From a virus, in the IMG/VR virus record IMGVR_UViG_3300033064_000510, positions 1 to 37,814 of that record: DNA of 37,814 nt; one strand, given 5' to 3'. The notes beneath the pieces were generated by a model. It was given only the letters and a program-made list of their open reading frames with translations. It did no database searches and was not told the DNA's origin. Both the position numbers and the translations under genes were made by a program. How positions within the stretch are numbered: the stretch's first letter is position 1; the number at the start of each line of letters is the position of its first letter. Shown here one piece after another: positions 5,089 through 37,814 of the stretch.

Positions 5089-5751
5089 ATGCTATTATGT
5101 AAATTTTGCAACAAAGAATGTAAAAACGAAAACTCTCAACGAAATCATCAAAGACTTTGTAAGAGTAATGCTAATCGGCAATCAACATGGCTTGAAACCC
5201 ATCGAGATCAATTGCCATCTTGGAATAAAGGTCATACTAAAGAAACTGATCCAAGGATTGCAGTTAATGCTGCAAATACTTCCATTGGCATGAAACTAGC
5301 AATAGGCGAAGGTAGACATTCCGGTGCTTGGAATTCAGAGTATTGGACTGAAGAAGTTCGTAAAAATAAATCTGAAGAAAAAAAAGAACTTTATAGAAAA
5401 TTTCCAGAAAAACATCCTAATAGAAAATTAGCTGGAAATAGAAATAAAATGACTTATCCAGAGCAAGTTGCTCATGATTGGTTGTTAGACAATAAAATAT
5501 TATTCGAACCACAGAAGTTAATTGATGGAAAATATATTGACTTTTGTGTTGATAATATTGTTATTGAAATAGATGGTGAGCATTGGCATCCAATTGGAAA
5601 TACTGCAGATGCTGACCGTGATTCAAAACTAAAATCTTTGGGGTATGACGTTTATCGCATACGTAGTAAAGAAAATATACATAGTAGACTAGAAACAATT
5701 TTTAATCGCTCTTTTAGTATAAAGGCATTACAATACATTGGTAATGTATAG
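5089..5751 (+). CDS. homing endonuclease-like protein (EDxHD/Vsr-like) ending inside tRNA-Thr(GGT)
   Basis: A 220-residue paralogue in design of the protein at 2220. It has an N-terminal zinc finger (C4, C7, H20, C24), a central helical DNA-binding region and a Vsr/EDxHD nuclease domain with E125 (YPEQ), D151 (YIDF), E160 and D162 (EIDGEHWH), H165 and D176/D178. AGGAG precedes the ATG and a late promoter lies at 5063. The last 15 codons and the stop overlap 44 bases of a tRNA-Thr(GGT) gene, from its first base through the anticodon loop. It probably cuts DNA at or near that tRNA; activity is inferred, not shown. Confidence 0.85.
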   Translation: MLLCKFCNKECKNENSQRNHQRLCKSNANRQSTWLETHRDQLPSWNKGHTKETDPRIAVNAANTSIGMKLAIGEGRHSGAWNSEYWTEEVRKNKSEEKKELYRKFPEKHPNRKLAGNRNKMTYPEQVAHDWLLDNKILFEPQKLIDGKYIDFCVDNIVIEIDGEHWHPIGNTADADRDSKLKSLGYDVYRIRSKENIHSRLETIFNRSFSIKALQYIGNV

Positions 5752-13349: not shown

Positions 13350-13379
13350 AAAAAGGGCCTTCGGGTCCTTTTGTCGTTT
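13350..13379 (+). terminator. rho-independent terminator
   Basis: AAAAGGGCC, TTCG loop, GGTCCTTTT, then GTCGTTTC. It separates the late fibre cluster from the early gene region. Confidence 0.88.
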
Positions 13380-16075: not shown

Positions 16076-16095
16076 CCATAATCAGCGTGTCCGGA
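16076..16095 (+). repeat. CAGCGTGTCCGG dispersed repeat, copy 1
   Basis: The same 20 bases as at 16379-16398. It is the reverse complement (with few changes) of the CCAGACACGCTG copies at 16590 and 16936. A second shared motif, GGATAGTTCTGGACCGG, follows at 16101-16117 and recurs at 17063-17079. Confidence 0.65.
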
Positions 16096-16146
16096 GAGAC
16101 GGATAGTTCTGGACCGGTGAAAACGGAACAAAGACCGGCCGTCCTG

Positions 16147-17035: not shown

Positions 17036-17108
17036 ATAATGGTATACCGCTTTAGCGGAACAGGATAGTTCTGGACCGGAGACAAGTGAATAGATCTGCA
17101 CAAAGTAG

Positions 17109-17667: not shown

Positions 17668-17891
17668 TGACTGAAGCAGAAGCAATCGCACAAGCACTAC
17701 AGACGAGTGGAGGCTTAGTATCGTTTGAAGGACAGAACTGTACTGTTGACTACCTAGACGAAGGTGCTGAGGAGTGCGGTGGATGGGATGGCGTGAGTCG
17801 ACGGTGCGAGTGTGGTAACCGGCGTGTCTCCTGGGAAGTGTACCGCGATGACAGTGGTGATGGTGTAATCGTTGAGGCGGTGGCATACTAA
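17667..17891 (+). CDS. small phage protein with CxCGNRRV motif, 74 aa
   Basis: MTEAEAIAQALQTSGGLVSFEGQNC start and RRCECGNRRVSWEVYRDD: a conserved cysteine-turn that I recognise from short phage proteins. Possibly a small metal or nucleic-acid binder. Its stop is inside the 27-bp palindrome preceding the next promoter. Confidence 0.7.
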   Translation: MTEAEAIAQALQTSGGLVSFEGQNCTVDYLDEGAEECGGWDGVSRRCECGNRRVSWEVYRDDSGDGVIVEAVAY

Positions 17892-17916
17892 TAGTTGACT
17901 AAAACAGTGGCCTATT
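17890..17916 (+). promoter_or_regulatory. 27-bp interrupted palindrome, copy 1
   Basis: AATAGTTGACT, AAAAC, AGTGGCCTATT. Outer AATAG/CTATT and inner ACT/AGT are symmetrical; the central three bases of each arm vary. The same sequence at 26063 is inverted. The promoter starts two bases downstream. Confidence 0.7.
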
Positions 17917-17918
17917 GG

Positions 17919-17947
17919 TGTACGGTAATTAGACGTTATGGTATAAT
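17919..17947 (+). promoter_or_regulatory. early promoter
   Basis: TGTACG, 17 nt, TATAAT. It drives 17972-18463. Confidence 0.85.
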
Positions 17948-17971
17948 TGATCTATCAAAACAGGAATCCAT

Positions 17972-18208
17972 ATGAACACCGTAACAGCAACCTTCTCCAA
18001 TCTCGACTATGCAAACTTTGACCAACTCATGGAAGACAAGAACTTCCTGGGTCTGTCACTGGTGTCCTTCAAAGTCACCGACGAGAAGTACGTAACTCTG
18101 GTCCTGAAGGGTAACATCGAGATGATTAAGACCTTCACCAACTGGGTCAACAATCCTAAGAACTGGACCAAGGAAGCACTGGATGCGTTTAAATCAACCA
18201 GCGAGTAA
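17972..18208 (+). CDS. small hypothetical early protein, 78 aa
   Basis: MNTVTATFSNLDYANFDQLMED start; an alpha/beta protein with VTDEKYVTLVLKGN and NWVNNPKNWTKEAL. No recognised family. CAGGAATCCAT precedes the ATG. First gene of a two-gene operon. Confidence 0.7.
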   Translation: MNTVTATFSNLDYANFDQLMEDKNFLGLSLVSFKVTDEKYVTLVLKGNIEMIKTFTNWVNNPKNWTKEALDAFKSTSE

Positions 18209-18211
18209 TAT

Positions 18212-18463
18212 ATGAATATCTGTACTAACTGTAAGCATCACAATCAAGTATATGATAGCGGTATGGTATACTGCGAGAATCCATTGAATGGCGTTAATCC
18301 AACTACTGGTGCGCCTATGTCAAAGTTTGCTATTTTGAATCGAACCTTTGATATCAGGTGCGGACCAGATGGAGATTGGTTTGAAGAGAAAGAAGTAGTC
18401 GTCAAGATCTCTTGGTGGAGTGCACTGATGGGTGGTATGGGCAGCGGGACCGGTGTCAAATAG
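18212..18463 (+). CDS. small zinc-ribbon-like protein, 83 aa
   Basis: Cysteines at 4, 7, 21 and 50 (CTNCKHH ... VYCENPL ... IRCGPDGDWFE) match a family of short phage proteins with a CxxC...C...CGxxGxxF pattern, likely zinc-binding. A C-terminal WWSALMGGMGSGTGVK tail is not part of that pattern. The stop codon TAG lies inside the next 27-bp palindrome. Confidence 0.72.
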   Translation: MNICTNCKHHNQVYDSGMVYCENPLNGVNPTTGAPMSKFAILNRTFDIRCGPDGDWFEEKEVVVKISWWSALMGGMGSGTGVK

Positions 18464-18485
18464 TATACTAAAACAGTCAACTATT
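18459..18485 (+). promoter_or_regulatory. 27-bp interrupted palindrome, copy 2
   Basis: AATAGTATACT, AAAAC, AGTCAACTATT, two bases before the next promoter. Confidence 0.7.
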
Positions 18486-18487
18486 GG

Positions 18488-18516
18488 TGTACGGTAATTA
18501 GACGTTATGGTATAAT
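18488..18516 (+). promoter_or_regulatory. early promoter
   Basis: TGTACG, 17 nt, TATAAT. It drives the gene at 18543. Confidence 0.85.
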
Positions 18517-18542
18517 TGATCTATACCAACCAAGGATCCATT

Positions 18543-18776
18543 ATGAAACCAATGCAAGCATTACAAAATCGCGACATATCTACGATTGACGAAAATGGAT
18601 GTTATGTGGATGTAGATTATACTGTATGGGTTGTTCATCATGCTGGAGTTTATCCTTCTCCTGGACCATCAGATACGTTGCGCAAAGCGCTAAGAGAAGG
18701 TAAGTGCTACTATTCTAGAGAAGCTGCACAGGCTCATTTTCGTACGTTGGCCATGACTACAGTGGTGATTGGTTGA
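18543..18776 (+). CDS. small hypothetical early protein, 77 aa
   Basis: The start at 18543 follows CAAGGATCCATT; an earlier in-frame ATG overlaps the -10 box. The sequence (WVVHHAGVYPSPGPSDTLRKALREGKCYYSREAAQAHFRTL) suggests a small alpha/beta fold but no named family. Its 5' leader is nearly the same as that of the HD hydrolase gene at 19313. Confidence 0.7.
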   Translation: MKPMQALQNRDISTIDENGCYVDVDYTVWVVHHAGVYPSPGPSDTLRKALREGKCYYSREAAQAHFRTLAMTTVVIG

Positions 18777-18801
18777 CGGCTTAGCACAAACCTGCTATAA
18801 T
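18773..18801 (+). promoter_or_regulatory. sigma70 promoter of different type
   Basis: TTGACG, 17 nt, TATAAT, overlapping the end of the previous gene. It lacks the TGTAC box and the conserved spacer, so it is not a copy of the family. Confidence 0.65.
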
Positions 18802-18829
18802 TAACACTTACACAACCACGCCGGAGCAC

Positions 18830-19210
18830 ATGATGGCAAGAGAAACAGCAGCACAACGTGCAGTACGATTCGAAGCAGAGCACGAAGAACGCCTGAGCAA
18901 AGAAGTTGCAGAGTATCCACAACGTCTGATGACATTGCTGACCCGGTCTGTCGCTGACGCCTTTGACCTTACTGTTAGCGACAACAAGTTCCGAGTCGAA
19001 GATCGCAACAACAGCGTCTGGTGGAACTTGGCCTACGCTCACAGCTCGGAGAGCCAGGAACGTTTGGAAGACTTGGAGTATACCTTGGATCGCAAGGATA
19101 CAGAAGCCGCAGAAGCCAAGCGTAAGGACGAACTTGCTCGTACAGCATTCAACAAGCTGAGCAAAGAAGAACAACAGGCACTAGGGCTCAGCAGCCGATT
19201 TAACTGGTAA
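18830..19210 (+). CDS. charged helical early protein, 126 aa
   Basis: A charged, helical, partly coiled-coil protein. RNNSVWWNLAYAHSSESQERLEDLEYTLD and a C-terminal AFNKLSKEEQQALGL recall a phage family with a YAxSSExxxxLEDL helix and a LSxEExxxLGL end. Either of two adjacent ATGs (18830 or 18833) may be used, after CCGGAGCAC. It has its own promoter of a different type. Function unknown. Confidence 0.7.
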   Translation: MMARETAAQRAVRFEAEHEERLSKEVAEYPQRLMTLLTRSVADAFDLTVSDNKFRVEDRNNSVWWNLAYAHSSESQERLEDLEYTLDRKDTEAAEAKRKDELARTAFNKLSKEEQQALGLSSRFNW

Positions 19211-19228
19211 GTTCGTTTGGTACAGAAT

Positions 19229-19255
19229 AATAGTATACTAAAACAGTCAACGATT
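19229..19255 (+). promoter_or_regulatory. 27-bp interrupted palindrome, copy 3
   Basis: AATAGTATACT, AAAAC, AGTCAACGATT. The bases before it (GGTACAGAATAA) repeat the end of the HD hydrolase gene, so the module was copied together with upstream coding sequence. Confidence 0.68.
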
Positions 19256-19257
19256 GG

Positions 19258-19286
19258 TGTACGGTAATTAGACGTTGTGGTATAAT
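19258..19286 (+). promoter_or_regulatory. early promoter
   Basis: TGTACG, 17 nt, TATAAT. It drives the HD hydrolase gene. Confidence 0.85.
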
Positions 19287-19312
19287 TGATCTATACCAAC
19301 CAAGGATCCATT

Positions 19313-19762
19313 ATGAAAAAAGGCCAGATGTTAGCGACTATGTTAGTCATTGCGACTAACGCCCATAATGGTCAATTCGACAAAGGTGGTGCTCCATACA
19401 TCTTGCATCCTCTGAAAGTCATGCACTACCTGAAGTCAGACGACGAGGAGCTGATGTGTATCGCCCTTGGTCATGATGTGATCGAAGATACCTCTGTTAC
19501 CTACAAGGACCTACGAGATGCTGGTATCTCAGAACGAGTTATCGCTGGCATCCGGGCTTTGACTAAACTTCCCGGTCAGACTCTGGAAGAATACAAGGCA
19601 GGTGTCTTTGAGAACATGGATGCTATGAGAGTCAAGATGGCCGATCTCCGGCACAACACAGATGTTCGTCGGTTGAAAGGTGTAACAGAGAAAGACATTG
19701 CCCGGATGGCAAAGTACCATACCTTCTACATGGAGATCAAAGTTCGTCTTGGTACAGAATAA
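19313..19762 (+). CDS. HD-domain hydrolase, MESH1/SpoT-like alarmone hydrolase candidate, 149 aa
   Basis: Stand-alone HD hydrolase of the RelA/SpoT hydrolase type. Motifs are AHNGQFDKGGAPYILHP (H18, H32), GHDVIEDT (H54, D55, E58, D59), ALTK at 82-85, EEYKAGVFEN and VKMADLRHNTD at 107-117. This is the layout of small alarmone hydrolases, which remove the 3' pyrophosphate of (p)ppGpp using Mn2+. A phage copy could blunt the host stringent response or act on another nucleotide. Start at 19313 after CAAGGATCCATT. Its stop lies in the next 27-bp palindrome. Confidence 0.85.
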   Translation: MKKGQMLATMLVIATNAHNGQFDKGGAPYILHPLKVMHYLKSDDEELMCIALGHDVIEDTSVTYKDLRDAGISERVIAGIRALTKLPGQTLEEYKAGVFENMDAMRVKMADLRHNTDVRRLKGVTEKDIARMAKYHTFYMEIKVRLGTE

Positions 19763-19787
19763 TAGTATACTAAAACAGTCAACTATT
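19761..19787 (+). promoter_or_regulatory. 27-bp interrupted palindrome, copy 4
   Basis: AATAGTATACT, AAAAC, AGTCAACTATT, identical to copy 2. Confidence 0.7.
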
Positions 19788-19789
19788 GG

Positions 19790-19818
19790 TGTACACTAAT
19801 TAGACGTTGTGGTATAAT
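19790..19818 (+). promoter_or_regulatory. early promoter
   Basis: TGTACA, 17 nt, TATAAT. It starts the operon 19851-21532. Confidence 0.85.
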
Positions 19819-19850
19819 AGATCTATCAAAACAAACAAACTAGGACTTAT

Positions 19851-20114
19851 ATGAATTCAATCGCTTCTTCCACTGGTGGCTCCATCAAGTACTCTGATCG
19901 TGGTCTGGTCCACACCGCTAGCACTGGTGCCTACTCAGGTCGTATCGCTGAGATGGGAATGGAATGCATGGTAGTGGATGCTCCAAAGCGAGGTCGTGGT
20001 CGTCCCAAAGCAGCTACTGCTACTAATGGTTTCTATGACTTCTCTGCCTTTGGTCCTACGATCAAACTCGCGAAGTTCACCGGCAACATCACCGTCGTGA
20101 AAGCCAAGGTATGA
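19851..20114 (+). CDS. AT-hook protein, 87 aa
   Basis: KRGRGRPK at 46-53 is a classical AT-hook, which binds the minor groove of AT-rich DNA; the rest is low in structure with a serine/glycine-rich start. It could be a DNA-binding or host-targeting regulator. ACTAGGACTTAT precedes the ATG and the stop overlaps the next start (ATGA). Confidence 0.72.
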   Translation: MNSIASSTGGSIKYSDRGLVHTASTGAYSGRIAEMGMECMVVDAPKRGRGRPKAATATNGFYDFSAFGPTIKLAKFTGNITVVKAKV

Positions 20115-20236
20115 GTGACCTACAGATTCAAATCGTGGAGATGCTCGCCGAGGGTAAGTCCCATCGGTGTATCGCTAACTTCCTGGATATTCCTCTGACA
20201 TGGATCTACGAAGCTATCGAGATGGAGGCTGCATGA
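20111..20236 (+). CDS. tiny helix-turn-helix-like protein, 41 aa
   Basis: MSDLQIQIVEMLAEGKSHR then CIANFLDIPLTWIYEAIEMEAA: a three-helix arrangement with a typical HTH turn (SxxxIAxxLxIPxxWIYEA), seen in short phage proteins. Possibly DNA-binding. It overlaps both neighbours by ATGA. Confidence 0.7.
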   Translation: MSDLQIQIVEMLAEGKSHRCIANFLDIPLTWIYEAIEMEAA

Positions 20237-20412
20237 ACGAAGACATTATCAAGATGGCGCGTGAGGCTTGTGCTTTGCTTGCTCAGCAGTTTGGCTCAAA
20301 CCGTCCAATCGTTGCAGCATACCCAAGTCGTCTTGTTTCCGGGCGGTGGGAATGTGAGCAGGCAGCAAGCTCTGGAATTGCAGATGCCATTAGAGCAAGG
20401 AGCCAATCATGA
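20233..20412 (+). CDS. small hypothetical protein, 59 aa
   Basis: MNEDIIKMAREACALLAQQFG start, helical and alanine-rich. More GC-rich than the AT-rich genes further right, and like the next gene of a style usual in prophages of Betaproteobacteria. Coupled to both neighbours by overlapping ATGA. Unknown function. Confidence 0.68.
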   Translation: MNEDIIKMAREACALLAQQFGSNRPIVAAYPSRLVSGRWECEQAASSGIADAIRARSQS

Positions 20413-20906
20413 GCCGCGAAGTATTGAAGCAGGCGCTTGAGGCGCTAGAAAATGGCAAGAAGGTTCGTGCGTTTGGTGGCTGCACAAAGTTTCAAGAACC
20501 GCTAGAGGATGCAGCCATCACCGCAATCAAAGAATCATTGGCACAGCCAGAGCAGGAGCTGGTGGCACTAGAGGACACGATTTCAAATCGCCGAATAATC
20601 AGCGAAGACCCCGGCGCGACAATTTCAATCATGCGGGGAATGCAGCGCACCATTGATCGCTTAAAGGCACAGCCAGAGCAGGACGCAGAAGCTCATCTGC
20701 AAGCAATATCAGATTTCGGACAGGAGCAAGAGCCGGTGGCAGTTACTGGTGGTGGAAAAACTTATCAAGACTTAGAGTTTCTACCAAATGCCCCACAGTT
20801 AGAAAATGGAACTTTGCTCTACGCATCACCACCAAAGCGCGAATGGGTTTATATGCTTGGGTATAAGGCAGGCGTTAAAGCTGCATTAAAGGAGAAGAAC
20901 GCCTAA
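20409..20906 (+). CDS. Burkholderiales-prophage-type hypothetical protein, 165 aa
   Basis: MSREVLKQALEALENGK start, two LAQPEQE / KAQPEQDAE segments, then EQEPVAVTGGG, NGTLLYASPPKREWVYMLGYKAG. The plan (SREVLxQALEALE ... QPEQEPVA ... LYASPPxREWV) is one I associate with hypothetical proteins of Burkholderiales phages and prophages. The repeated QPEQ linker suggests internal duplication. Function unknown; useful as a host clue and as a possible transfer from a temperate phage. Confidence 0.75.
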   Translation: MSREVLKQALEALENGKKVRAFGGCTKFQEPLEDAAITAIKESLAQPEQELVALEDTISNRRIISEDPGATISIMRGMQRTIDRLKAQPEQDAEAHLQAISDFGQEQEPVAVTGGGKTYQDLEFLPNAPQLENGTLLYASPPKREWVYMLGYKAGVKAALKEKNA

Positions 20907-21118
20907 TGTACGCCCTGCTATCCCTGATGCTTGTGACAACAACGGTTGATGGGATTAGCACAAGCGTGCTAGAATGGAACCCCGAGCCAGTTAGTGTGCA
21001 TGAAACATGGCGGCTCTGTAAGTTTGCTTATTACGACAAGGCTGGCTTCAAACGTAGGCTGACATCGACAACGTGGCTTCAATATTCACCTGTACTAAAA
21101 TGTAAGAAGATATCATGA
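20906..21118 (+). CDS. small secreted-type protein, 70 aa
   Basis: MYALLSLMLVTTTVDGISTSVLEWN start: a short hydrophobic N-terminus that may be a signal or anchor, then two cysteines (LCKF, LKCKK). The protein at 24855 has the same plan (hydrophobic MTYILMMWAIVTPMG start, W, EMCKNAAKEL, YMCVRNS end), so they may be distant paralogues. Start overlaps the previous stop (TAATG). Confidence 0.65.
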   Translation: MYALLSLMLVTTTVDGISTSVLEWNPEPVSVHETWRLCKFAYYDKAGFKRRLTSTTWLQYSPVLKCKKIS

Positions 21119-21198
21119 TATGGTTTGGTGTTGTTATTCAGTTAATTCTAGTTGCTATTATGGTGACTATTCTTTATATGCTTAGGACTGCCGCATGA
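21115..21198 (+). CDS. tiny membrane protein, 27 aa
   Basis: MIWFGVVIQLILVAIMVTIL then YMLRTAA: one transmembrane helix. Overlaps both neighbours by ATGA, which supports translation. Confidence 0.55.
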   Translation: MIWFGVVIQLILVAIMVTILYMLRTAA

Positions 21199-21371
21199 AA
21201 TATAATACTATTCAAATGTCATGGGATTGTAATAGCGGTAGGTCCGATGTAACGGTATACTATAAGACAGAAGCAGAAGCAATGGATATTGCAATTGCCT
21301 TTGGTTATATTCCTCGCAAATGGTATCACTTTGGATTCGGTGCTATCTACATTATGAAGACATCTGCATGA
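21195..21371 (+). CDS. small hypothetical protein, 58 aa
   Basis: MKYNTIQMSWDCNSGRSDVTV, then TEAEAMDIAIAFGY and WYHFGFGAIYIMKT: beta strands around one helix, a common plan for small phage proteins but no named family. Coupled to both neighbours through ATGA. Confidence 0.65.
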   Translation: MKYNTIQMSWDCNSGRSDVTVYYKTEAEAMDIAIAFGYIPRKWYHFGFGAIYIMKTSA

Positions 21372-21532
21372 ACGATATTGGATTATACTTATCTTTTACC
21401 TTTGTTGGTATACTAGTAGTTGGATTACTGTGGGTATTCCGCGAATTAGTATTCACAATGATACTTTGGTTAGCTTTCTTTGGTGCCTTCATGTACGCCG
21501 CGCTGGAGATCTTCTCCTACTTCATGCTCTAA
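21368..21532 (+). CDS. small membrane protein, 54 aa
   Basis: Two transmembrane helices (about residues 6-24 and 27-52) in MNDIGLYLSFTFVGILVVGL and the following segment. I use the ATG overlapping the previous stop; an earlier in-frame ATG lies inside that gene. Last gene of the operon; the stop codon abuts a 27-bp palindrome. Confidence 0.65.
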   Translation: MNDIGLYLSFTFVGILVVGLLWVFRELVFTMILWLAFFGAFMYAALEIFSYFML

Positions 21533-21557
21533 TAGTTGACTAAAACAGTGGCCTATT
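21531..21557 (+). promoter_or_regulatory. 27-bp interrupted palindrome, copy 5
   Basis: Identical to copy 1 at 17890. Confidence 0.7.
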
Positions 21558-21558
21558 G

Positions 21559-21587
21559 TGTACGGTAAATTGCACTTGTGGTATAAT
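21559..21587 (+). promoter_or_regulatory. early promoter
   Basis: TGTACG, 17 nt, TATAAT. The spacer differs from most copies. It drives the AAA+ ATPase operon. Confidence 0.85.
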
Positions 21588-21616
21588 AGATCTAATCAAT
21601 CAAACAGGCAATCTAA

Positions 21617-22522
21617 ATGACTACAAACATCTCCTTCGACAAAGCTTCTGGCAAGTACACCTGCAACATCCAGGGTAACACCTTCAAGACCAGCAAGCGT
21701 GATTATGTCGAGTATATGTTCAAGAAGATCACCGGCACCAAGAAGTCCTACGACGAAATCGTCGGCGATGTCAAGGAAGTCAAATCAGATCGCTTCTGTA
21801 TCAACCAGCGTTTCTCCTTCGTTGAGAAGCTTATCTCCATGGTTGCCTCTGGCGTTCAACCCTCGGCTGTGATCACCGGCCAAGGTGGTCTGGGTAAGAC
21901 TTACACAGTTATGAAGACTCTCGTTGCTGCAGGATACAAGGATGCTACATCCCTCGCAGACTTTGAAGTTGGTGCAGTCGTTAATCGTACCAAGCTCTTC
22001 GTGACTGTCAAGGGTTACTCCACAGCAAAGGGTTTGTTCCGGACACTCTTCGAGAACAATGGTTCGGTTATCGTATTCGACGACTGTGACTCAGTGCTTA
22101 AAGATCCAGTTGCTTTGAACTTGCTTAAGGGTGCACTGGACTCCTACGGCAAGCGAGTCATCTCCTGGAATGCAGATATGAAGGATGAAGATCTGCCACG
22201 TAGCTTTGACTTCACCGGCAAGGTGGTGTTTATCTCCAACAAGGCTCAGAACGATATTGATCAGGCAATCCGCTCGCGCTCTATGATGATCGACCTTGCC
22301 ATGACACTGGACCAGAAGATCGATCGTATGGAGTACATCTCCAAGTCGGAAGAGTTCATGCCAGAGTATAGCATGGAAGTGAAGAAGGACGCTATGTCTT
22401 TGATCAAAGCATTGAAGAATGATGCCAAGGAGATCTCCCTTCGTACACTTATCAGTGTCTCTAAGATCCGCGCCTCTAACAAGGATTGGAAAGATTTGGC
22501 TGAATATATGCTTGTTGCCTAA
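21617..22522 (+). CDS. AAA+ ATPase, 301 aa
   Basis: Single AAA+ module: Walker A GQGGLGKT at 88-95, Walker B VIVFDD at 151-156, sensor-1 VVFISN at 203-208 and likely arginine fingers in IRSRSMM (219-222). Residues 1-60 form a separate N-terminal part, and a helical lid follows 225. It resembles ATPases of large phages whose role is not settled (possibly remodelling or loading of replication or maturation proteins). It is the largest gene of the early region apart from the RNA ligase and has a GC content and codon choice closer to the 17000-20000 genes than to the small genes that follow. Confidence 0.82.
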   Translation: MTTNISFDKASGKYTCNIQGNTFKTSKRDYVEYMFKKITGTKKSYDEIVGDVKEVKSDRFCINQRFSFVEKLISMVASGVQPSAVITGQGGLGKTYTVMKTLVAAGYKDATSLADFEVGAVVNRTKLFVTVKGYSTAKGLFRTLFENNGSVIVFDDCDSVLKDPVALNLLKGALDSYGKRVISWNADMKDEDLPRSFDFTGKVVFISNKAQNDIDQAIRSRSMMIDLAMTLDQKIDRMEYISKSEEFMPEYSMEVKKDAMSLIKALKNDAKEISLRTLISVSKIRASNKDWKDLAEYMLVA

Positions 22523-22531
22523 GGAGTTACT

Positions 22532-22750
22532 ATGAATGAACGAATGCTCGAATTGTATACACTGGCTCATGTACCTCATACTGCAATTGATCCGTCAAAC
22601 AATATGCCATATGAGACTAACCACTTTAGTGCAGACAAGTTTGCTGAGTTGATTGTGAAAGAGTGTGCTAGTATTGTCTATAAAACTGATACTGATCATG
22701 CTGATGGTCTAGCGTTATTGTTGTTACACACTTTCGGAGTTGAGAAATGA
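22532..22750 (+). CDS. FAELI-ECA...FGVE family protein, 72 aa
   Basis: MNERMLELYTLAHV start, FSADKFAELIVKECASIV middle and LLHTFGVEK end. Second member of the family first seen at 17443. AAGGAG precedes the ATG. The stop overlaps the next start (ATGA). Confidence 0.85.
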   Translation: MNERMLELYTLAHVPHTAIDPSNNMPYETNHFSADKFAELIVKECASIVYKTDTDHADGLALLLLHTFGVEK

Positions 22751-22872
22751 AATTAGCATGGCTTGTCTGGCGTGATAATGAATCTGAATTTCCGGAGATT
22801 CACTTCTCTGAACCACACTATGGCTATCACTTCAAGACAGTTGCTATTGTGTATATGGAGATTGTGCCATGA
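22747..22872 (+). CDS. conserved tiny phage protein, 41 aa
   Basis: MKLAWLVWRDNESEFPEIHF, then SEPHYGYHFKTVAIVYMEIVP. I recognise the pattern (KxAWLVW.D....P.I.F.EP.YxYxxKxIVYxEI) from many large phages. Function unknown. Overlaps both neighbours by ATGA. Confidence 0.78.
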   Translation: MKLAWLVWRDNESEFPEIHFSEPHYGYHFKTVAIVYMEIVP

Positions 22873-23111
22873 ACGAACGAATTAAAGAACTTGCTAAACA
22901 GGCCGGATTGGATTTAATCCATGATAAATTTATGACTGCATCTCAGGAAAAGTTCGCAAGGTTGATTGTGCGGGAATGCGCCCGTGTTGCTCGAGCAATA
23001 CCTTGTCCGTACGAAGAGGAAGAAGTAAAACAGCGACTCGGTCACACATGGGATATGGCTTCGTTGGCATCGGGTCGCAGCATTAGCAAACATTTTGGAT
23101 TAGAAGAATGA
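22869..23111 (+). CDS. FAELI-ECA...HFGLE family protein, 80 aa
   Basis: MNERIKELAKQAGL start, FARLIVRECARVARAI middle and SISKHFGLEE end; the middle insert carries CPYEEEEVKQRLGHTWD. This is closest to the usual form of the family. Coupled to its neighbours by ATGA overlaps. Confidence 0.87.
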   Translation: MNERIKELAKQAGLDLIHDKFMTASQEKFARLIVRECARVARAIPCPYEEEEVKQRLGHTWDMASLASGRSISKHFGLEE

Positions 23112-23389
23112 ATAATCGTATTATTGAACTCTTTAAACAGATTGGTGCTATCCAATATGATGAAGACGGTGATGAACAGACTCCGATTCTTGTTGGCAAA
23201 GATTTGGAAAAGTTCGCTGAATTGATTATTAAAGAATGTATTGGCATTTTGGAAACAGAGATCGAGTTAGTTAAAGGATATAAGTCCACTGCTCGTAATG
23301 ATTTTGATATCAAGTGGCACCAGGGTAAGATTACACACTTTACTATATTGATTGAAAAGAGTAAAAAACATTTCGGAGTTGAACAATGA
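23108..23389 (+). CDS. FAELI-ECI...HFGVE family protein, 93 aa
   Basis: MNNRIIELFKQIGAIQYDEDG start, LEKFAELIIKECIGIL and a SKKHFGVEQ end. The middle (YKSTARNDFDIKWHQGKITHF) is longer than in other copies. Part of a run of adjacent paralogues. Overlaps its neighbours by 4 bases. Confidence 0.85.
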   Translation: MNNRIIELFKQIGAIQYDEDGDEQTPILVGKDLEKFAELIIKECIGILETEIELVKGYKSTARNDFDIKWHQGKITHFTILIEKSKKHFGVEQ

Positions 23390-23532
23390 AGAGCGTCTGT
23401 AAGCGATGTGGAGTAGTTCATAATAGTCCTGCTTTTGATCCAAAGAAGATTATTGATAAGTTAGCTAAAGATATCGCTAGAAAGATAGACCAAGAAGTAT
23501 TAGCTAATCTACAAAGAGAACAAAAGAAATGA
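23386..23532 (+). CDS. small protein with CxxC knuckle, 48 aa
   Basis: MKSVCKRCGVVHNSPAF then a lysine-rich helix. A single CxxC pair followed by H13 could bind zinc only in a dimer or with a partner. It is inserted between two copies of the FAELI family and overlaps both by ATGA. Confidence 0.62.
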   Translation: MKSVCKRCGVVHNSPAFDPKKIIDKLAKDIARKIDQEVLANLQREQKK

Positions 23533-23798
23533 ATGAACGAATTAGACTACTAGCTAAGAAAGCCAGCATTAAAATTACTCCTATGATTCTTGACGGCGTT
23601 GAGTATGAGTATGAAGATGTTGACATGGATGGGTTTGAAGATTTGCAAAAGTTCTCCGAACTAATTATAGAAGAAGCTATTAGCGCTCTCTGGACAGAAG
23701 AGTGTTATACCAGTGATTTGGCTATTGAAGAATATAGACGGGCTATTGAAGAATATAGACGTAACAGTGACAAGATCAAACAGCACTTTGGACTATAA
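23529..23798 (+). CDS. FAELI-like family protein with internal duplication, 89 aa
   Basis: MNERIRLLAKKASIKITP start, LQKFSELIIEEAISALW in place of FAELIxxECA, and IKQHFGL end. The segment EEYRRAIEEYRR comes from a 20-bp tandem duplication at about 23726-23762. Its stop overlaps the next start by one base. Confidence 0.83.
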   Translation: MNERIRLLAKKASIKITPMILDGVEYEYEDVDMDGFEDLQKFSELIIEEAISALWTEECYTSDLAIEEYRRAIEEYRRNSDKIKQHFGL

Positions 23799-24022
23799 TG
23801 GAACATATTGAAACTCATAGTATCTCGCCAATATACTGCCAACCCGGCGATACTATTAATCTAGTATATGATTATACTGAAGATGGATTCTGGTCTAAAA
23901 AGACTATTCAACTCGATAAGTTGACTGAACCACAAATGATCGATACTATTATTGTCTATAAAGTTAATAATGAATATGGCCTTAAGTCGGGTCGAGCTAT
24001 TATCATGGGTGAAGCTGAGTGA
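23798..24022 (+). CDS. small hypothetical protein, 74 aa
   Basis: A beta-rich acidic protein (ISPIYCQPGDTINLVYDYTEDGFWSKKTIQLDKL) with no family assignment. The start overlaps the previous stop (TAATG). Confidence 0.65.
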   Translation: MEHIETHSISPIYCQPGDTINLVYDYTEDGFWSKKTIQLDKLTEPQMIDTIIVYKVNNEYGLKSGRAIIMGEAE

Positions 24023-24153
24023 AACACGTCTGGCACTGGCTCGTCAGTGTCTATGATCGCTATGACTTCACCGTCGTGGAATGGCTTGTCTGGCTTGGTC
24101 TAATAGTGTACTGTTTTAGTCAACTATTGGTGTACATTAAATCGTCTATTTGA
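24019..24153 (+). CDS. possible GTG-start membrane protein running into the promoter, 44 aa
   Basis: GTG inside the previous stop (GTGA). MKHVWHWLVSVYDRYDFTVV then EWLVWLGLIVYCFSQLLVYI is a plausible membrane helix. The reading frame crosses the 27-bp palindrome and the promoter up to the -10 box, so the last 17 residues are encoded by regulatory DNA. It may have been extended when the module was inserted, or may not be a gene. Confidence 0.4.
   Translation: MKHVWHWLVSVYDRYDFTVVEWLVWLGLIVYCFSQLLVYIKSSI
24102..24128 (+). promoter_or_regulatory. 27-bp interrupted palindrome, copy 6 (inverted orientation)
   Basis: AATAGTGTACT, GTTTT, AGTCAACTATT. The centre reads GTTTT where copies 1 to 5 read AAAAC, so this copy is inverted relative to the promoter. 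Confidence 0.7.
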
Positions 24154-24159
24154 TATAAT
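24131..24159 (+). promoter_or_regulatory. early promoter
   Basis: TGTACA, 17 nt, TATAAT. It starts the operon 24187-26047. Confidence 0.85.
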
Positions 24160-24186
24160 TGATCTAACAAAACAAAGGAACTAACC

Positions 24187-24360
24187 ATGGCCGGAAAAGC
24201 AAAGTCAATCTATCTCACTATCTGCCCGAAGCGGGAACACATGAGCATCTTCAAGAAAGTGTTCTTCGAAGCTAAGTCATATAACGAGTATGTCAAGACT
24301 CCGGAGTTTCTCGCGATGTATCCCAAGGAACAGTTCGACATCATCAAAGAAGTGTACTGA
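24187..24360 (+). CDS. small hypothetical early protein, 57 aa
   Basis: MAGKAKSIYLTICPKREHMS start, basic, with FFEAKSYNEYVKTPEFLAMYPKEQFDII. No family recognised. AAAGGAACTAACC precedes the ATG. The stop is one base before the GTG of the next gene. Confidence 0.7.
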   Translation: MAGKAKSIYLTICPKREHMSIFKKVFFEAKSYNEYVKTPEFLAMYPKEQFDIIKEVY

Positions 24361-24361
24361 A

Positions 24362-24565
24362 GTGACTACATTTACTGAAGAGCAGATTGCTAACTGGGAC
24401 CGCTACGAAGAAGTTCGTGCAGGCGGCGAATTTAATATGTTCGATAGTCGTGCTCGAAGTTTGACCGACTTAGATAAAGACGAATACTTCTTTGTCATGC
24501 AGAACTACGCTGAACTAAAATTGGCTTCAGATGACTTCCATAAGAACAGTTCCTCGATTCGTTGA
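24362..24565 (+). CDS. conserved small phage protein (NMFDxRA), 67 aa
   Basis: GTG start at 24362, one base after the previous stop; the longer frame upstream lies inside that gene. YEEVRAGGEFNMFDSRAR and YFFVMQNYAELK match a phage family with the pattern YxxVRxSGxxNMFDxRA ... QNYxxL. Function unknown. Confidence 0.77.
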   Translation: MTTFTEEQIANWDRYEEVRAGGEFNMFDSRARSLTDLDKDEYFFVMQNYAELKLASDDFHKNSSSIR

Positions 24566-24620
24566 TCACCTTTGGTATCCTATACTCTGTAGAGTGGGTG
24601 GAGAGCGTAGGATCGTGGAG

Positions 24621-24704
24621 ATGCAGGGTTATAAAGCAAATGAATGGAATGACATTATAAAGCAAATGAATGGAATGACAGGTTATGACTTACGCAGACA
24701 TTAA
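24621..24704 (+). CDS. possible 27-aa peptide from a duplicated segment
   Basis: ATG after CGTGGAG. It consists mostly of two copies of a 21-bp direct repeat (TATAAAGCAAATGAATGGAA at about 24639 and 24660) that looks like the end of the next gene (ATGAATGGAATGA again at 24836). Probably a by-product of tandem duplication. Confidence 0.25.
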   Translation: MQGYKANEWNDIIKQMNGMTGYDLRRH

Positions 24705-24858
24705 GAATCTTTCAGATCGACTTGCTGAATTACGTGAGATTAATGGCCCAGCACCTATGCCTAGTCATACCACTGCGTTGCTTCTATTAGACGAAGTCGA
24801 AGAACTACGCGAGTATATTGAAGAACTACAAACAAATGAATGGAATGATAGGTTATGA
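24685..24858 (+). CDS. small helical protein, 57 aa
   Basis: MTYADIKNLSDRLAELREIN, then a second acidic helix LLLLDEVEELREYIEELQ: a helical hairpin or coiled coil. It ends in the sequence NEWNDRL encoded by a copy of the repeat found upstream at 24639-24684. Stop overlaps the next start. Confidence 0.7.
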   Translation: MTYADIKNLSDRLAELREINGPAPMPSHTTALLLLDEVEELREYIEELQTNEWNDRL

Positions 24859-25046
24859 CTTACATTCTAATGATGTGGGCAATAGTAACACCAATGGGCA
24901 CAGCAGGTAACTTAGTGTATGACTGGCGACCAGTTGGTGAGTTTCGTCGCGATAACTGGAAACGAGAAATCTCTGCAGAAGAAATGTGCAAGAATGCCGC
25001 AAAAGAATTACAGCTTAAGAAATATATGTGCGTGAGGAATTCGTGA
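24855..25046 (+). CDS. small secreted-type protein, 63 aa
   Basis: Hydrophobic start MTYILMMWAIVTPMGTAGN, then YDW, EEMCKNAAKEL and a YMCVRNS end; two cysteines probably form a disulfide. The pattern (hydrophobic start, ExCxxAAxxL, YxCVR) occurs in small phage proteins. Possibly exported to the periplasm. See also 20906. Confidence 0.7.
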   Translation: MTYILMMWAIVTPMGTAGNLVYDWRPVGEFRRDNWKREISAEEMCKNAAKELQLKKYMCVRNS

Positions 25047-25047
25047 T

Positions 25048-25227
25048 ATGGACCCAGTAATTCAACATCTCGCGGAATCTGCTGGATTTAATTTTGATGA
25101 ATATAATGAAGTGCTTCAGCGTAAGGTTGAGTTGCTATTTGAGCTAATTGGTCAAGACATACTTGAGTTAACCAATAGCCACGGCAATATCAAACCGCGT
25201 GAAGTAAAGAAATACTTTGGAGTGTAA
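25048..25227 (+). CDS. short, diverged member of the FAELI...YFGV family, 59 aa
   Basis: MDPVIQHLAESAGFNFDEYN start, a central VELLFELIGQDILEL helix and the end VKKYFGV. Length and ends fit the family, but the ECA core is lost. Start one base after the previous stop. Confidence 0.7.
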   Translation: MDPVIQHLAESAGFNFDEYNEVLQRKVELLFELIGQDILELTNSHGNIKPREVKKYFGV

Positions 25228-25229
25228 GA

Positions 25230-25631
25230 ATGAATAAGATTATAATTGCGCTATTGTTGTCTAGCGCTGCAATTGCTCATGCAGAATCTGATTGGGTTGA
25301 TATTGCTGGCACAGACGAAGTATCCTATGCTATTAAAAAAGGATCAGTCACTATTACTAAGACTACAGGTGGTACTAATATTGTCGCTGCTTTAGGAAGA
25401 ATGACAGATATTAAATCTAACACGTTGAAGGTATTTCAAATGTATGTACCTATTTCTGCGTGTATAGCAAAAGGCGGTACTCTAGTGTTAACAGACATTG
25501 CAGGTGAGGTTACTAGTAAGACAGCTTTTGTTTATGGTTTAGGTAGTATTGCCGCTGAATTGGCTGAGACTATCTGTGAAGTATCTAAACCTAGTAAGAA
25601 ATCAAAATCAGATAACTTAAAGATGATATAA
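25230..25631 (+). CDS. exported protein with signal peptide, 133 aa
   Basis: MNKIIIALLLSSAAIAHA is a classical Sec signal peptide with likely cleavage after A18 (AHA-ES). The mature part is beta-rich (VTITKTTGGTNIVAALGRMT) with cysteines at about 79 and 117 that may form a disulfide, and a lysine-rich tail. It probably acts in the host periplasm, a place where phages alter the envelope or block superinfection. No family identified. Confidence 0.75.
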   Translation: MNKIIIALLLSSAAIAHAESDWVDIAGTDEVSYAIKKGSVTITKTTGGTNIVAALGRMTDIKSNTLKVFQMYVPISACIAKGGTLVLTDIAGEVTSKTAFVYGLGSIAAELAETICEVSKPSKKSKSDNLKMI

Positions 25632-26047
25632 TGAAACTATATTTAGATACTGAATTTAATGGCTTTAATGGTAGACTAATATCGATGGCGCTAGTGCCAG
25701 AAGATAGTATGTATCCAGAGTTCTATTGCGAAGTCGATATGCTTGACCAATTAGATCCATGGGTTCGAGATAACGTAGTGCCGCACCTAATGCTAGTACC
25801 TAGTACACATAATGAATTCCAGCAAAAACTCTCTGCTTATCTACGTATGATTGGTGAATGCACTATTATCGCCGATTGGCCCGATGATATTAGATACTTC
25901 TGTGAATCGCTGATTACTGGTCCAGGTGAAAGAATTAGTTTAAGTAATAATATTAAATTCGAATTAAACTTTGATATTGAATATACTTCTGAAGTACCAC
26001 ATAGTGCACTGTGGGATGCTCGTGCAATTAGGGATAGTTATAAGTGA
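25631..26047 (+). CDS. DEDDh-type 3'-5' exonuclease-like protein, 138 aa
   Basis: YLDTEFN gives D6 and E8 of motif I, IIADWPDDI gives D82 or D85/D86 of motif II, and VPHSALWDAR gives H124 and D129 of motif III. This is the order of the DEDDh exonuclease superfamily, in a compact form. Likely acts on RNA or single-stranded DNA ends; substrate unknown. Start overlaps the previous stop (TAATG). Confidence 0.75.
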   Translation: MKLYLDTEFNGFNGRLISMALVPEDSMYPEFYCEVDMLDQLDPWVRDNVVPHLMLVPSTHNEFQQKLSAYLRMIGECTIIADWPDDIRYFCESLITGPGERISLSNNIKFELNFDIEYTSEVPHSALWDARAIRDSYK

Positions 26048-26062
26048 ACGAACCGACAACGT

Positions 26063-26089
26063 AATAGGCCACTGTTTTAGTCAACTATT
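26063..26089 (+). promoter_or_regulatory. 27-bp interrupted palindrome, copy 7 (inverted orientation)
   Basis: AATAGGCCACT, GTTTT, AGTCAACTATT: the exact reverse complement of copies 1 and 5, yet in the same position relative to its promoter. Confidence 0.72.
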
Positions 26090-26091
26090 TG

Positions 26092-26120
26092 TGTACATTA
26101 AATGGCACTTTTGGTATAAT
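26092..26120 (+). promoter_or_regulatory. early promoter
   Basis: TGTACA, 17 nt, TATAAT. It starts the operon 26146-27474. Confidence 0.85.
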
Positions 26121-31968: not shown

Positions 31969-32823
31969 ATGAAAATCTCTCTTGCCTCTGACGTCCACCT
32001 TGAGTTTGGTCAACTCGAAATCTCTAACACAGAAAACGCCGATGTGCTTATTCTGTCTGGTGATATTTGCACTGCAAAAGATTTAAACGATGTTGCGGAT
32101 TTTAATATCCTTGGAATGTCGCACAAGTCTAATCAGTATCATGAATTCTTTCAGAAAGCTTCTCGGGAATTCAAGAATGTCATCTACATTGCAGGTAACC
32201 ATGAGCACTATCATGGCGACTATGCTACGTCGATTCCACGTATTCGCGAGAAACTTGCATACTTGAAAAACATTCATTTTCTCGATAAAGAATATGTAAC
32301 GTTTGATGATGTTACCTTTGTTGGCGGAACTCTTTGGACTGATATGAACAAAGAAGATCCTTCAACATTGTATGGCATTAAAGGTTACATGAATGATTAT
32401 CGTATTATTAAAAATTCTGGACGTGATGTGCACTTCCGCGATCAAGATGGTAACTTTCAAACTAGAGATGCTAAGTTTTCTCCTGAAGATTCCGTTGAAG
32501 ATCATAAGGCAATGTTAGCATTTATTGATGATACGGTGAAAGGTATGCATAGTGAAAAGTTTGTAGTAGTGGGTCATCACTCACCTTCAAAACTATCCAC
32601 TAAGCCTCAATATGAAAATGATACGATGGTCAATGGTGCTTACTCGTCTGATTTGTCGGAGTTCATTCTTGATCATCCACAAATCAAAGTTTGGACTCAT
32701 GGGCATACTCATCACGCCTTTGACTATATGATTGGTTCAACTCGAGTGCTATGCAATCCACGCGGTTACATTGGTCACGAGCACTGTGCTGATACTTTTC
32801 AACTTCAATACTTCGAAGTTTAA
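31969..32823 (+). CDS. calcineurin-type metallophosphoesterase, 284 aa
   Basis: All five metal-binding motifs are present: SDVHLEFG (D8, H10), SGDIC (D32), AGNHEHY (N77, H78), GHHSP (H203) and THGHTH (H246, H248). A dinuclear-metal phosphoesterase on nucleotides, nucleic acids or phosphoproteins; the substrate cannot be told from the motifs. An internal insert at about 120-190 distinguishes it from the shortest members. Near-leaderless transcript from its own promoter. Confidence 0.87.
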   Translation: MKISLASDVHLEFGQLEISNTENADVLILSGDICTAKDLNDVADFNILGMSHKSNQYHEFFQKASREFKNVIYIAGNHEHYHGDYATSIPRIREKLAYLKNIHFLDKEYVTFDDVTFVGGTLWTDMNKEDPSTLYGIKGYMNDYRIIKNSGRDVHFRDQDGNFQTRDAKFSPEDSVEDHKAMLAFIDDTVKGMHSEKFVVVGHHSPSKLSTKPQYENDTMVNGAYSSDLSEFILDHPQIKVWTHGHTHHAFDYMIGSTRVLCNPRGYIGHEHCADTFQLQYFEV

Positions 32824-32824
32824 T

Positions 32825-33256
32825 ATGACTATTGTAACACTTAAAGAAGACGCAGAAGGTAATCTAATTCTACCACTCTCAGATGAACTTCTGAATGAAG
32901 TAGGATGGAAACCTGGTGATACTATTAATTGGACTGATAATGGAGATGGGAGTTGGACTATGACTAAGAAACTTGAAACCGAATTAGTTCTCGTTGAATG
33001 TGTATCTACATTTCGCATGCGCTACTTAGTAGAAGTGCCAAAAGGTAAAACCGAATGGGCTCTTGATAGTGTGTCAATGGATGAAGCTAATGAGTTCTCT
33101 CAAGAACACATTGGCGAACAAATCATGTCTCACCGCGTGATCAGTGAAGATGAAGCAATTGCAATTAGTGATAAAGATAACTATTATTGTGCTGCTTGGT
33201 CTCGTGAAAAGAAACTAGAAACGTTTGTAACAGAATGGAAAGAAAAAAATGAGTAA
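32825..33256 (+). CDS. conserved phage protein with AbrB-like N-terminus, 143 aa
   Basis: Residues 1-50 (LPLSDELLNEVGWKPGDTINWTDNGDGSWTM) resemble the swapped-hairpin AbrB/SpoVT motif seen in a phage family (LPxPDELLxExGWxEGDxLxWxDNxDGSWxL). The C-terminal 85 residues (RYLVEVPKGKTEWALDSV ... EFSQEHIGEQIMSHR) are a second conserved module. A DNA-binding or regulatory role is possible. Start one base after the previous stop; overlaps the next gene by 8 bases. Confidence 0.77.
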   Translation: MTIVTLKEDAEGNLILPLSDELLNEVGWKPGDTINWTDNGDGSWTMTKKLETELVLVECVSTFRMRYLVEVPKGKTEWALDSVSMDEANEFSQEHIGEQIMSHRVISEDEAIAISDKDNYYCAAWSREKKLETFVTEWKEKNE

Positions 33257-37097: not shown

Positions 37098-37814
37098 ATG
37101 GCAACTACACTCAATATTACCGGCGTTCTTTATCCAGATGGAACACAATCTTTGCCTTTAGATAGATTCCAAAAAGCTATTTTTGGATTTGGAATTATTA
37201 TTGATTATTATTCACTGACAAATATTGTCAGTGGAGGTATAGTAGCGACAGATACTACTGGCGTCGCTACTGCACGAGGGCAATTAGCTGCTGCCAGTTA
37301 TGGTGGCGATAAAGCAATATTTGGTTATGGAAATAAGAGCAGTGGTAATGTTTCATTGATAAATTTAATAAGTAGTTATGGTGTAGTATCAAGTGATATT
37401 GCTGGCGTTGGTACTGCTAGACGTGGTTTAGCTGCTGCTGGGTTTGGTGGCGATAAAGCAATCTTTGGGTATGGAACAGTCGATGGTAATAATAGCTTGT
37501 CAATGACAAATCTAGTATCAAATACTGGAGTAGTATCAAATGACGTTGCAGGTGTTGGAACTGCTCGCGCTGGGCTGGCAGCAGCCAGTTATGGTGGCGA
37601 TAAAGCTATATTTGCTTATGGTCGAACGCTTGGGACGCAACCTTCTATAACAAATTTAGTATCGAATACAGGCGTAGTATCTAGTGATGTTACACGTGTT
37701 ACAACGGGCCGGTCCAGCGCGGCCGGCGCTGGTTATGGCAATGATAAAGCAATCTTTGGGTATGGGTTTGCACTCAACCATACATCACTAACTAATCTAG
37801 TATCAAATACTGGA
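37098..37814 (+). CDS. repeat-containing virion protein, kelch-like, 3' end beyond window
   Basis: Partial: 239 codons to the window edge without stop. The N-terminus MATTLNITGVLYPDGTQSLP is a fibre or head-decoration type start. From residue 50 on, four copies of a unit of about 48 residues follow: GGDKAIFGYG, then (S/T)LTNLVSNTGVVSxD, xGVGTARxxLAAAxYG. This suits a beta-propeller such as the kelch-like proteins of T4-like aquatic phages. Preceded by a late promoter, so probably a virion component that binds the host surface. Confidence 0.82.
   Translation, partial: MATTLNITGVLYPDGTQSLPLDRFQKAIFGFGIIIDYYSLTNIVSGGIVATDTTGVATARGQLAAASYGGDKAIFGYGNKSSGNVSLINLISSYGVVSSDIAGVGTARRGLAAAGFGGDKAIFGYGTVDGNNSLSMTNLVSNTGVVSNDVAGVGTARAGLAAASYGGDKAIFAYGRTLGTQPSITNLVSNTGVVSSDVTRVTTGRSSAAGAGYGNDKAIFGYGFALNHTSLTNLVSNTG

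Follow-up and report, generated by a model that had tools for sequence, protein, structure and literature searches.

A 27-bp dyad element, and candidate operator, at two set distances upstream of early promoters in uncultured T4-like phages

T4-type phages carry promoter-early stem-loop (PeSL) cassettes (Arbiol et al. 2010; Comeau et al. 2014, as described in PMC4503421). Here we analyzed a related arrangement in IMGVR_UViG_3300033064_000510, a 37.8-kb record of an uncultured virus that is probably a fragment of a larger genome and was taken at its full length of 37,814 nucleotides (the window), in which a 27-bp interrupted palindrome lies directly before seven early promoters. The palindrome of the PeSLs is reportedly a terminator stem-loop. 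The window element resembles these cassettes in being a small intergenic unit that is joined to an early promoter, repeated in early regions of small unknown genes and swapped between genes, including unrelated ones, but it differs from them in that its palindrome is not an intrinsic terminator, that its half-sites are conserved and that it occupies two set distances to the -35 box.

The early promoters of RB49, RB43, and Aeh1 have a GTTTAC-type -35 box and a T4-like -10 box and stand before novel open reading frames (ORFs) and tRNA genes; no MotA is recognized in these phages, and the UP-like sequence of T4-like early promoters is contacted by the alpha subunit (PMC1524935). The window promoters have a similar -35 box with G for T (GTGTAC versus GTTTAC), whereas no 27-bp dyad is described for RB49, RB43, and Aeh1, which instead have an A-rich, UP-like stretch from -40 to -44 (PMC1524935). 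Judged by their GTGTAC -35 box, TATAAT -10 box, and early-gene location, the element-bearing promoters would belong to the T4 early type. T4 middle promoters depend on a MotA box and AsiA, the short asymmetric Mot box (GCTT) lying at -30 to -27 (PMC1524935). The likeness to these would be that of a phage activator site at promoters with a poor -35 box and a good extended -10 box; the differences are that the 27-bp dyad is centred near -51 or -60, that most -35 boxes are kept, and that a search for the MotA C-terminal domain (MotCF) in two element-bearing relatives, G040 and G025, gave no match. No Mot box was seen in the element promoters, and in a search for AsiA the controls themselves gave no match.

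The dyad element in the window

The initial annotation of the window had listed seven copies of the palindrome, each ending one or two bases before a TGTAC box, and both statements were borne out. The dyad AATAGNNNACTNNNNNAGTNNNCTATT occurs exactly at 17890, 18459, 19761, 21531, 24102, and 26063 and, with one mismatch (CGATT), at 19229, and copies 1 to 7 end 2, 2, 2, 2, 1, 2, and 2 bp before TGTAC. At up to three mismatches to this consensus, the window contains eight matches versus 0.35 ± 0.54 expected, the eighth (19774) being a chance overlap. Each dyad is formed by two 11-bp half-sites, AATAGNNNACT and its complement, both near TAGTNNACTA, around a 5-bp, mostly A/T-rich centre. As had been noted, this centre is AAAAC in five of the window copies and GTTTT in two; AATTT, AAATC, and GATTT were also seen. 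The triplets TTG, TAT, TCT, CCG, and GCC recur in the arms and, to judge by this pattern, look more like tolerated half-site variants than the copy-specific signals that had been proposed.

All copies and their promoters (given from the TGTAC -35 to the TATAAT -10 box) lie on the plus strand. Copy 1 (17890 to 17916; TTG-AAAAC-GCC, 2 bp before TGTAC) precedes a T4-type early promoter at 17919 to 17947, copy 2 (18459 to 18485; TAT-AAAAC-TTG) one at 18488 to 18516, and copy 3 (19229 to 19255; TAT-AAAAC-TTG, with the one mismatch) the promoter at 19258 to 19286 before a gene for an HD-family phosphohydrolase. Copy 4 (19761 to 19787; TAT-AAAAC-TTG) is followed by the promoter at 19790 to 19818, before an AT-hook-like gene (19851 to 20114) and a small helix-turn-helix (HTH) gene, and copy 5 (21531 to 21557; TTG-AAAAC-GCC, 1 bp before TGTAC) by the promoter at 21559 to 21587, before an AAA ATPase gene (21617 to 22522, plus strand; phrog_1250, annotated nrdC.10 in cultured-phage matches). 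Copies 6 (24102 to 24128; TGT-GTTTT-TTG) and 7 (26063 to 26089; GCC-GTTTT-TTG) stand before promoters at 24131 to 24159 and 26092 to 26120. The 27 bp of copy 7 do match the reverse complement of copies 1 and 5 exactly, and identity stops outside these 27 bp. The stop codon of the preceding gene, said to lie often inside the element, falls within the left arm or overlaps it in four or five of the seven copies (17891, 18463, 19762, 21532, and probably 24103) and outside it at 19229 and 26063.

There are 21 TGTAC-N18-TATAAT promoters in the window, all on the plus strand, 7 with the dyad and 14 without it, and the 7 are consecutive, from 17.9 to 26.1 kb. The stretches directly upstream of the 21 promoters amount by arithmetic to about 1 to 2% of the window, yet they hold all seven dyads. 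Two further features of the window promoters were noted. Their -35/-10 spacers (e.g., at 17919 and 24131) carry TAGACG in some cases and the reverse complement CGTCTA in others (AATTAGACGTT versus AAATCGTCTATT), a second two-orientation motif. The sequence GATAGTTCTGGACCGG is present at about 16095 to 16120 and 17061 to 17085, upstream of the element-free promoters 16147 and 17109, and may be another upstream cassette.

Recurrence in relatives and two set distances to the promoter

Loci of relatives were collected with the AAA ATPase as the query and with DNA patterns. The element was found in about 35 related uncultured T4-like phage contigs, mostly fragmentary and partly redundant, which include close relatives (AAA protein 87 to 89% identical) and more distant ones (65 to 71%), and a diverged form, TAGTCTACTAAAACGGTAGACTA, occurs in a group of contigs, one of them 167 kb long. 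Placement at random relative to promoters was tested in 375 kb (the window and 15 related contigs, with 165 promoters), and every element with two or fewer mismatches was found to precede a TGTAC-N17-19-TATAAT promoter. The near-complete G040 (166.8 kb) has eight elements, seven of them in an early region at 104.7 to 113.2 kb, each followed by a -10 box. The commonest element site is the AAA-gene promoter, in the window and about 11 other loci; the claim that the element accompanies every AAA homologue was dropped, since the contigs behind it had been chosen for bearing the element and other AAA promoters are without it.

An exact dyad scan of IMG/VR returned 35 stretches, about two-thirds of which are chance palindromes in unrelated viruses. 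When cultured phages were searched by BLAST with the consensus element plus promoter, only the promoter part matched among the matches listed, and a megablast of the window against cultured phages gave no match. Two unrelated contigs (L037, 11512 to 11640; L038, 8090 to 8220) carry four 38-bp tandem copies containing AATAGTACATTATTTTAGTCAAGTATT beside a similar perfect palindrome. Sequences like single half-sites were also observed: promoters without the full element in G040 (L305 to L313; e.g., 52421, 81714, and 137228) often have AGTATACAG or a similar sequence abutting the -35 box, and many promoters of the group B contigs G025, G026, and G022 (L238 to L252) have GGGGCCTA or TTCTA abutting TGTAC, which resembles the half-site with GCC in copies 1, 5, and 7 of the window.

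The distance between element and promoter was then determined by an unbiased scan of the 0 to 44 bp upstream of 621 distinct promoters. At up to three mismatches, 63 elements were identified, 43 of them at 1 to 2 bp and 20 at 9 to 12 bp from TGTAC, and none at 3 to 8 or 13 to 44 bp; one of the 20 (L015) is probably a chance match. Almost no elements were present in a control stretch 150 bp further upstream of the same promoters. A collection-wide search in which gaps of 0 to 30 bp were allowed yielded the same two distance classes, except for one site 2 bp closer. Orthologous promoters switch only between the two classes: the spacing at the AAA promoter is 1 to 2 bp in the window and G001 to G003 versus 10 to 11 bp in G006, G008, G009, G010, and G017, and that at the second promoter of a tRNA cluster is 1 bp in G026 versus 10 bp in G034. 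In the latter two contigs (G026, L287 5644 to 5790, minus strand; G034, L276 and L297 1680 to 1810), two tandem element-promoter units about 90 bp apart stand before the tRNA cluster. Across nine element-bearing AAA promoters, identity is 91% over the 16 dyad bases (partly owing to the selection of sites by pattern), 54% over the triplets and centre, and 30%, near chance, over the 27 bp upstream.

Operator or RNA hairpin

Two half-sites, an A/T-rich spacer, and set distances from the -35 box are what the binding site of a dimeric regulator would look like, and together with the recurrence in relatives they support the operator suggested in the initial annotation. We consider it rather probable that the element is an operator bound by a dimeric (or tetrameric) regulator, most likely one encoded by the phage and most likely activating a subset of early promoters. 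The element extends over approximately -38 to -64 relative to a T4-type early promoter with its GTGTAC -35 and extended TGnTATAAT -10 boxes, or over that region shifted 8 to 9 bp upstream. This region is the usual place of action of the RNA polymerase alpha C-terminal domain and of UP elements. From such a position, the regulator would most likely contact RNA polymerase and thereby place a subset of early promoters under separate control or timing.

An activator is the likelier form of such a regulator because several element-bearing promoters have lost their -35 box. Five of the eight in G040 have a degenerate one (TTCCCA twice, TTCCCG, TGTCCG, and TATACA overlapping the arm). Furthermore, 9 of 35 element promoters have G as the base after TGTAC, versus 2 of 163 others. 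By analogy with MotA at T4 middle promoters, the lost -35 boxes and the TGTACG excess suggest activation. The same anatomy, a dyad with an A/T-rich centre abutting the -35 box, would also serve a phage repressor that, by obstructing the -35 box or the alpha subunit, silences some of the early promoters at a later stage of infection, and repeated sites before many early promoters would suit a shut-off regulon; early promoters of the T4 type tend to be strong and to be silenced later. However, the 9- to 12-bp class leaves the -35 box free, and the degraded boxes in several G040 promoters better suit an activator. Repression is, in our estimate, possible but not favoured.

The regulator could also be a host protein, if the phage had captured the site of a host regulator or nucleoid protein, and such a protein would be present at once when early promoters fire. 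A scan of 84,980 bacterial and archaeal genomes for the TTG-TAT form, which covered the TTG-TAT arms only, gave three matches, near or below chance, and no regulon, and we regard a host protein as unlikely. A TrpR-like operator (core TAGTTAACTA) was dropped, since CTAG is not conserved.

Several points weigh against a phage activator that acts through the element. No element is present at the AAA promoter in the relatives L043, L044, L046, L053, L055, and L073, the first three of which have AAA proteins 70 to 71% identical. The two spacing classes differ by 7 to 10 bp, with a mean of about 8, and so match "one helical turn" only roughly; an exception is G022, where about 67 bp separate the element from the AAA promoter downstream and a terminator follows the element. 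The majority of the degenerate -35 boxes belong to a single genome, most element-bearing promoters retain TGTACA, which is compatible with a repressor, and the TGTACG excess may reflect copied cassettes. As to the genome scan, the host may be absent from the collection.

The initial annotation had also offered a hairpin terminator working both ways, a suggestion that did not survive. No U-tract is present, and the elements are predicted to fold at -1.3 to -8.1 kcal/mol versus -12.4 kcal/mol for a real terminator at 13351 in the same window; the G+C-rich stem and following U run of an intrinsic terminator are lacking. The broader alternative is that the dyad forms an RNA hairpin where the upstream operon ends, be it a terminator, a target of RNase III, or an RNA-binding site, on the model of the T4 PeSL cassettes. 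Such a hairpin would account for the stop codons that extend into the left arm, and in still more distant relatives the orthologous place before the AAA gene shows the PeSL layout, with a true terminator directly adjoining a TTTACTTTAAT promoter. In addition to the weak folds, there is no selection for pairing: among 51 element sequences, 85 of 153 arm-triplet pairs were complementary versus 80 on random re-pairing (P = 0.22). An apparent avoidance of paired arms in a first test of 26 sequences (P ~0.01) disappeared with the 51. Moreover, the position of the element is fixed within 1 to 3 bp relative to the downstream -35 box, and separate terminators lie ahead of it in several relatives: in G026, G034, and G025, the preceding gene closes with a canonical terminator, after which comes the element, immediately ahead of the tRNA-cluster promoters, and in G033 a terminator stands directly upstream of the element. 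Because arm covariation is absent, the folds are weak with no U-tract after them, and true terminators are found just upstream in several relatives, the element is not a terminator, and we hold an RNA hairpin of any kind to be very unlikely. The element is a variant of the mobile early-promoter cassettes called PeSLs, with a probable operator in the terminator's place.

Cassette exchange, candidate regulators, and implications

A third suggestion was that the palindrome is a site where promoter cassettes recombine, with inversion by an enzyme. Its milder part stood: the element moves together with its promoter between genes. When the window was compared with its three closest relatives, element identity was 20.8/27 for orthologous and 21.4/27 for unrelated genes, and promoter identity was 22.7/29 and 22.4/29, respectively; since orthology of the genes brings no closer similarity of element and promoter, the cassette shuffles. 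The best cassette matches are between unrelated genes, and the element and promoter of window copy 1 are identical to a cassette before a different gene in G002. Within the window, copies 2 and 3 agree at 88 of 90 bases including the leader (18459 to 18548 as one side). The HD-family gene has the element in the window and none in G001, where the protein is 89% identical, and comparisons of this kind indicate that genes gain and lose the element. The cassette presumably moves by homologous recombination, through which element and promoter would spread among genes.

Enzymatic inversion, on the other hand, found no support. XerCD dif and pdif modules consist of two 11-bp arms around a short centre of 6 and occur near gene cassettes. 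The 11-5-11 layout of the element is similar, its centres occur in both orientations, and its cassettes stand before different genes, all of which would fit a dif-like site for the exchange or flipping of promoter cassettes. However, the centre has 5 bp, not 6, and there is no conserved overlap region: centres differ among copies of one genome. TTG-AAAAC-TAT and TAT-AAAAC-TTG are both found in one contig, which inversion of the whole element cannot yield, so arms and centre assort independently. In 20 contigs, all exact promoters of each contig pointed in the same direction. The identity of the inverted copy ends at 27 bp, whereas that of cassettes extends over promoter and leader, as expected for homologous recombination. 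Given independently varying arms and centres and promoters that are never flipped, the element is not an invertible site, and site-specific recombination is the most improbable of the explanations considered.

For the putative operator, a candidate regulator is a 41-amino-acid HTH_23-like protein (20111 to 20236, plus strand), encoded in the operon behind copy 4, whose Pfam match (E = 0.005) is below the cut-off. Its relatives in G017 and G040 are encoded directly behind the AAA gene, and one is also present in the element-free G027. When gene content was compared between the element-bearing G025 and the element-free G027 and G029, 87 ORFs, many of them spurious, were obtained; apart from small HTH proteins, which G027 likewise encodes, no clear regulator emerged. 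An AbrB/MazE-like protein (32819 to 33253) was rejected as the regulator, as it also occurs in relatives without the element. The window further contains 19 tRNA genes, an RNA-ligase gene, a PhoH-like gene, and many small ORFs. The HD-family metal-dependent phosphohydrolase gene behind copy 3 (19313 to 19762, plus strand; phrog_990) possibly encodes a (p)ppGpp hydrolase. A family of small paralogous ORFs (MNERIKEL...FAELIIKECA...HFGVE) is present in at least seven copies across the early region (17443, 22532, 22869, 23108, 23529, 25048, and 28216); two related ORFs within the tRNA cluster (2220 to 2822 and 5089 to 5751) resemble homing-type endonucleases by eye; and four repeats of about 144 bp (37209 to 37765) lie in an ORF that runs off the window end.

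Several T4-like phages lack MotA. We tentatively propose, as one possibility among others, that middle or delayed-early transcription in this environmental T4-like lineage is MotA independent: a phage regulator, possibly the 41- to 60-amino-acid HTH protein encoded behind the AAA or AT-hook gene, would bind the mobile 27-bp operator and replace the -35 contact, and genes would join or leave the regulon by cassette capture. A promoter-linked candidate operator that is found in dozens of uncultured genomes, keeps to two set distances, and passes from gene to gene provides a defined bait for its regulator. Thus, the transfer of regulatory cassettes, instead of genes, is a way in which a phage regulon could expand.

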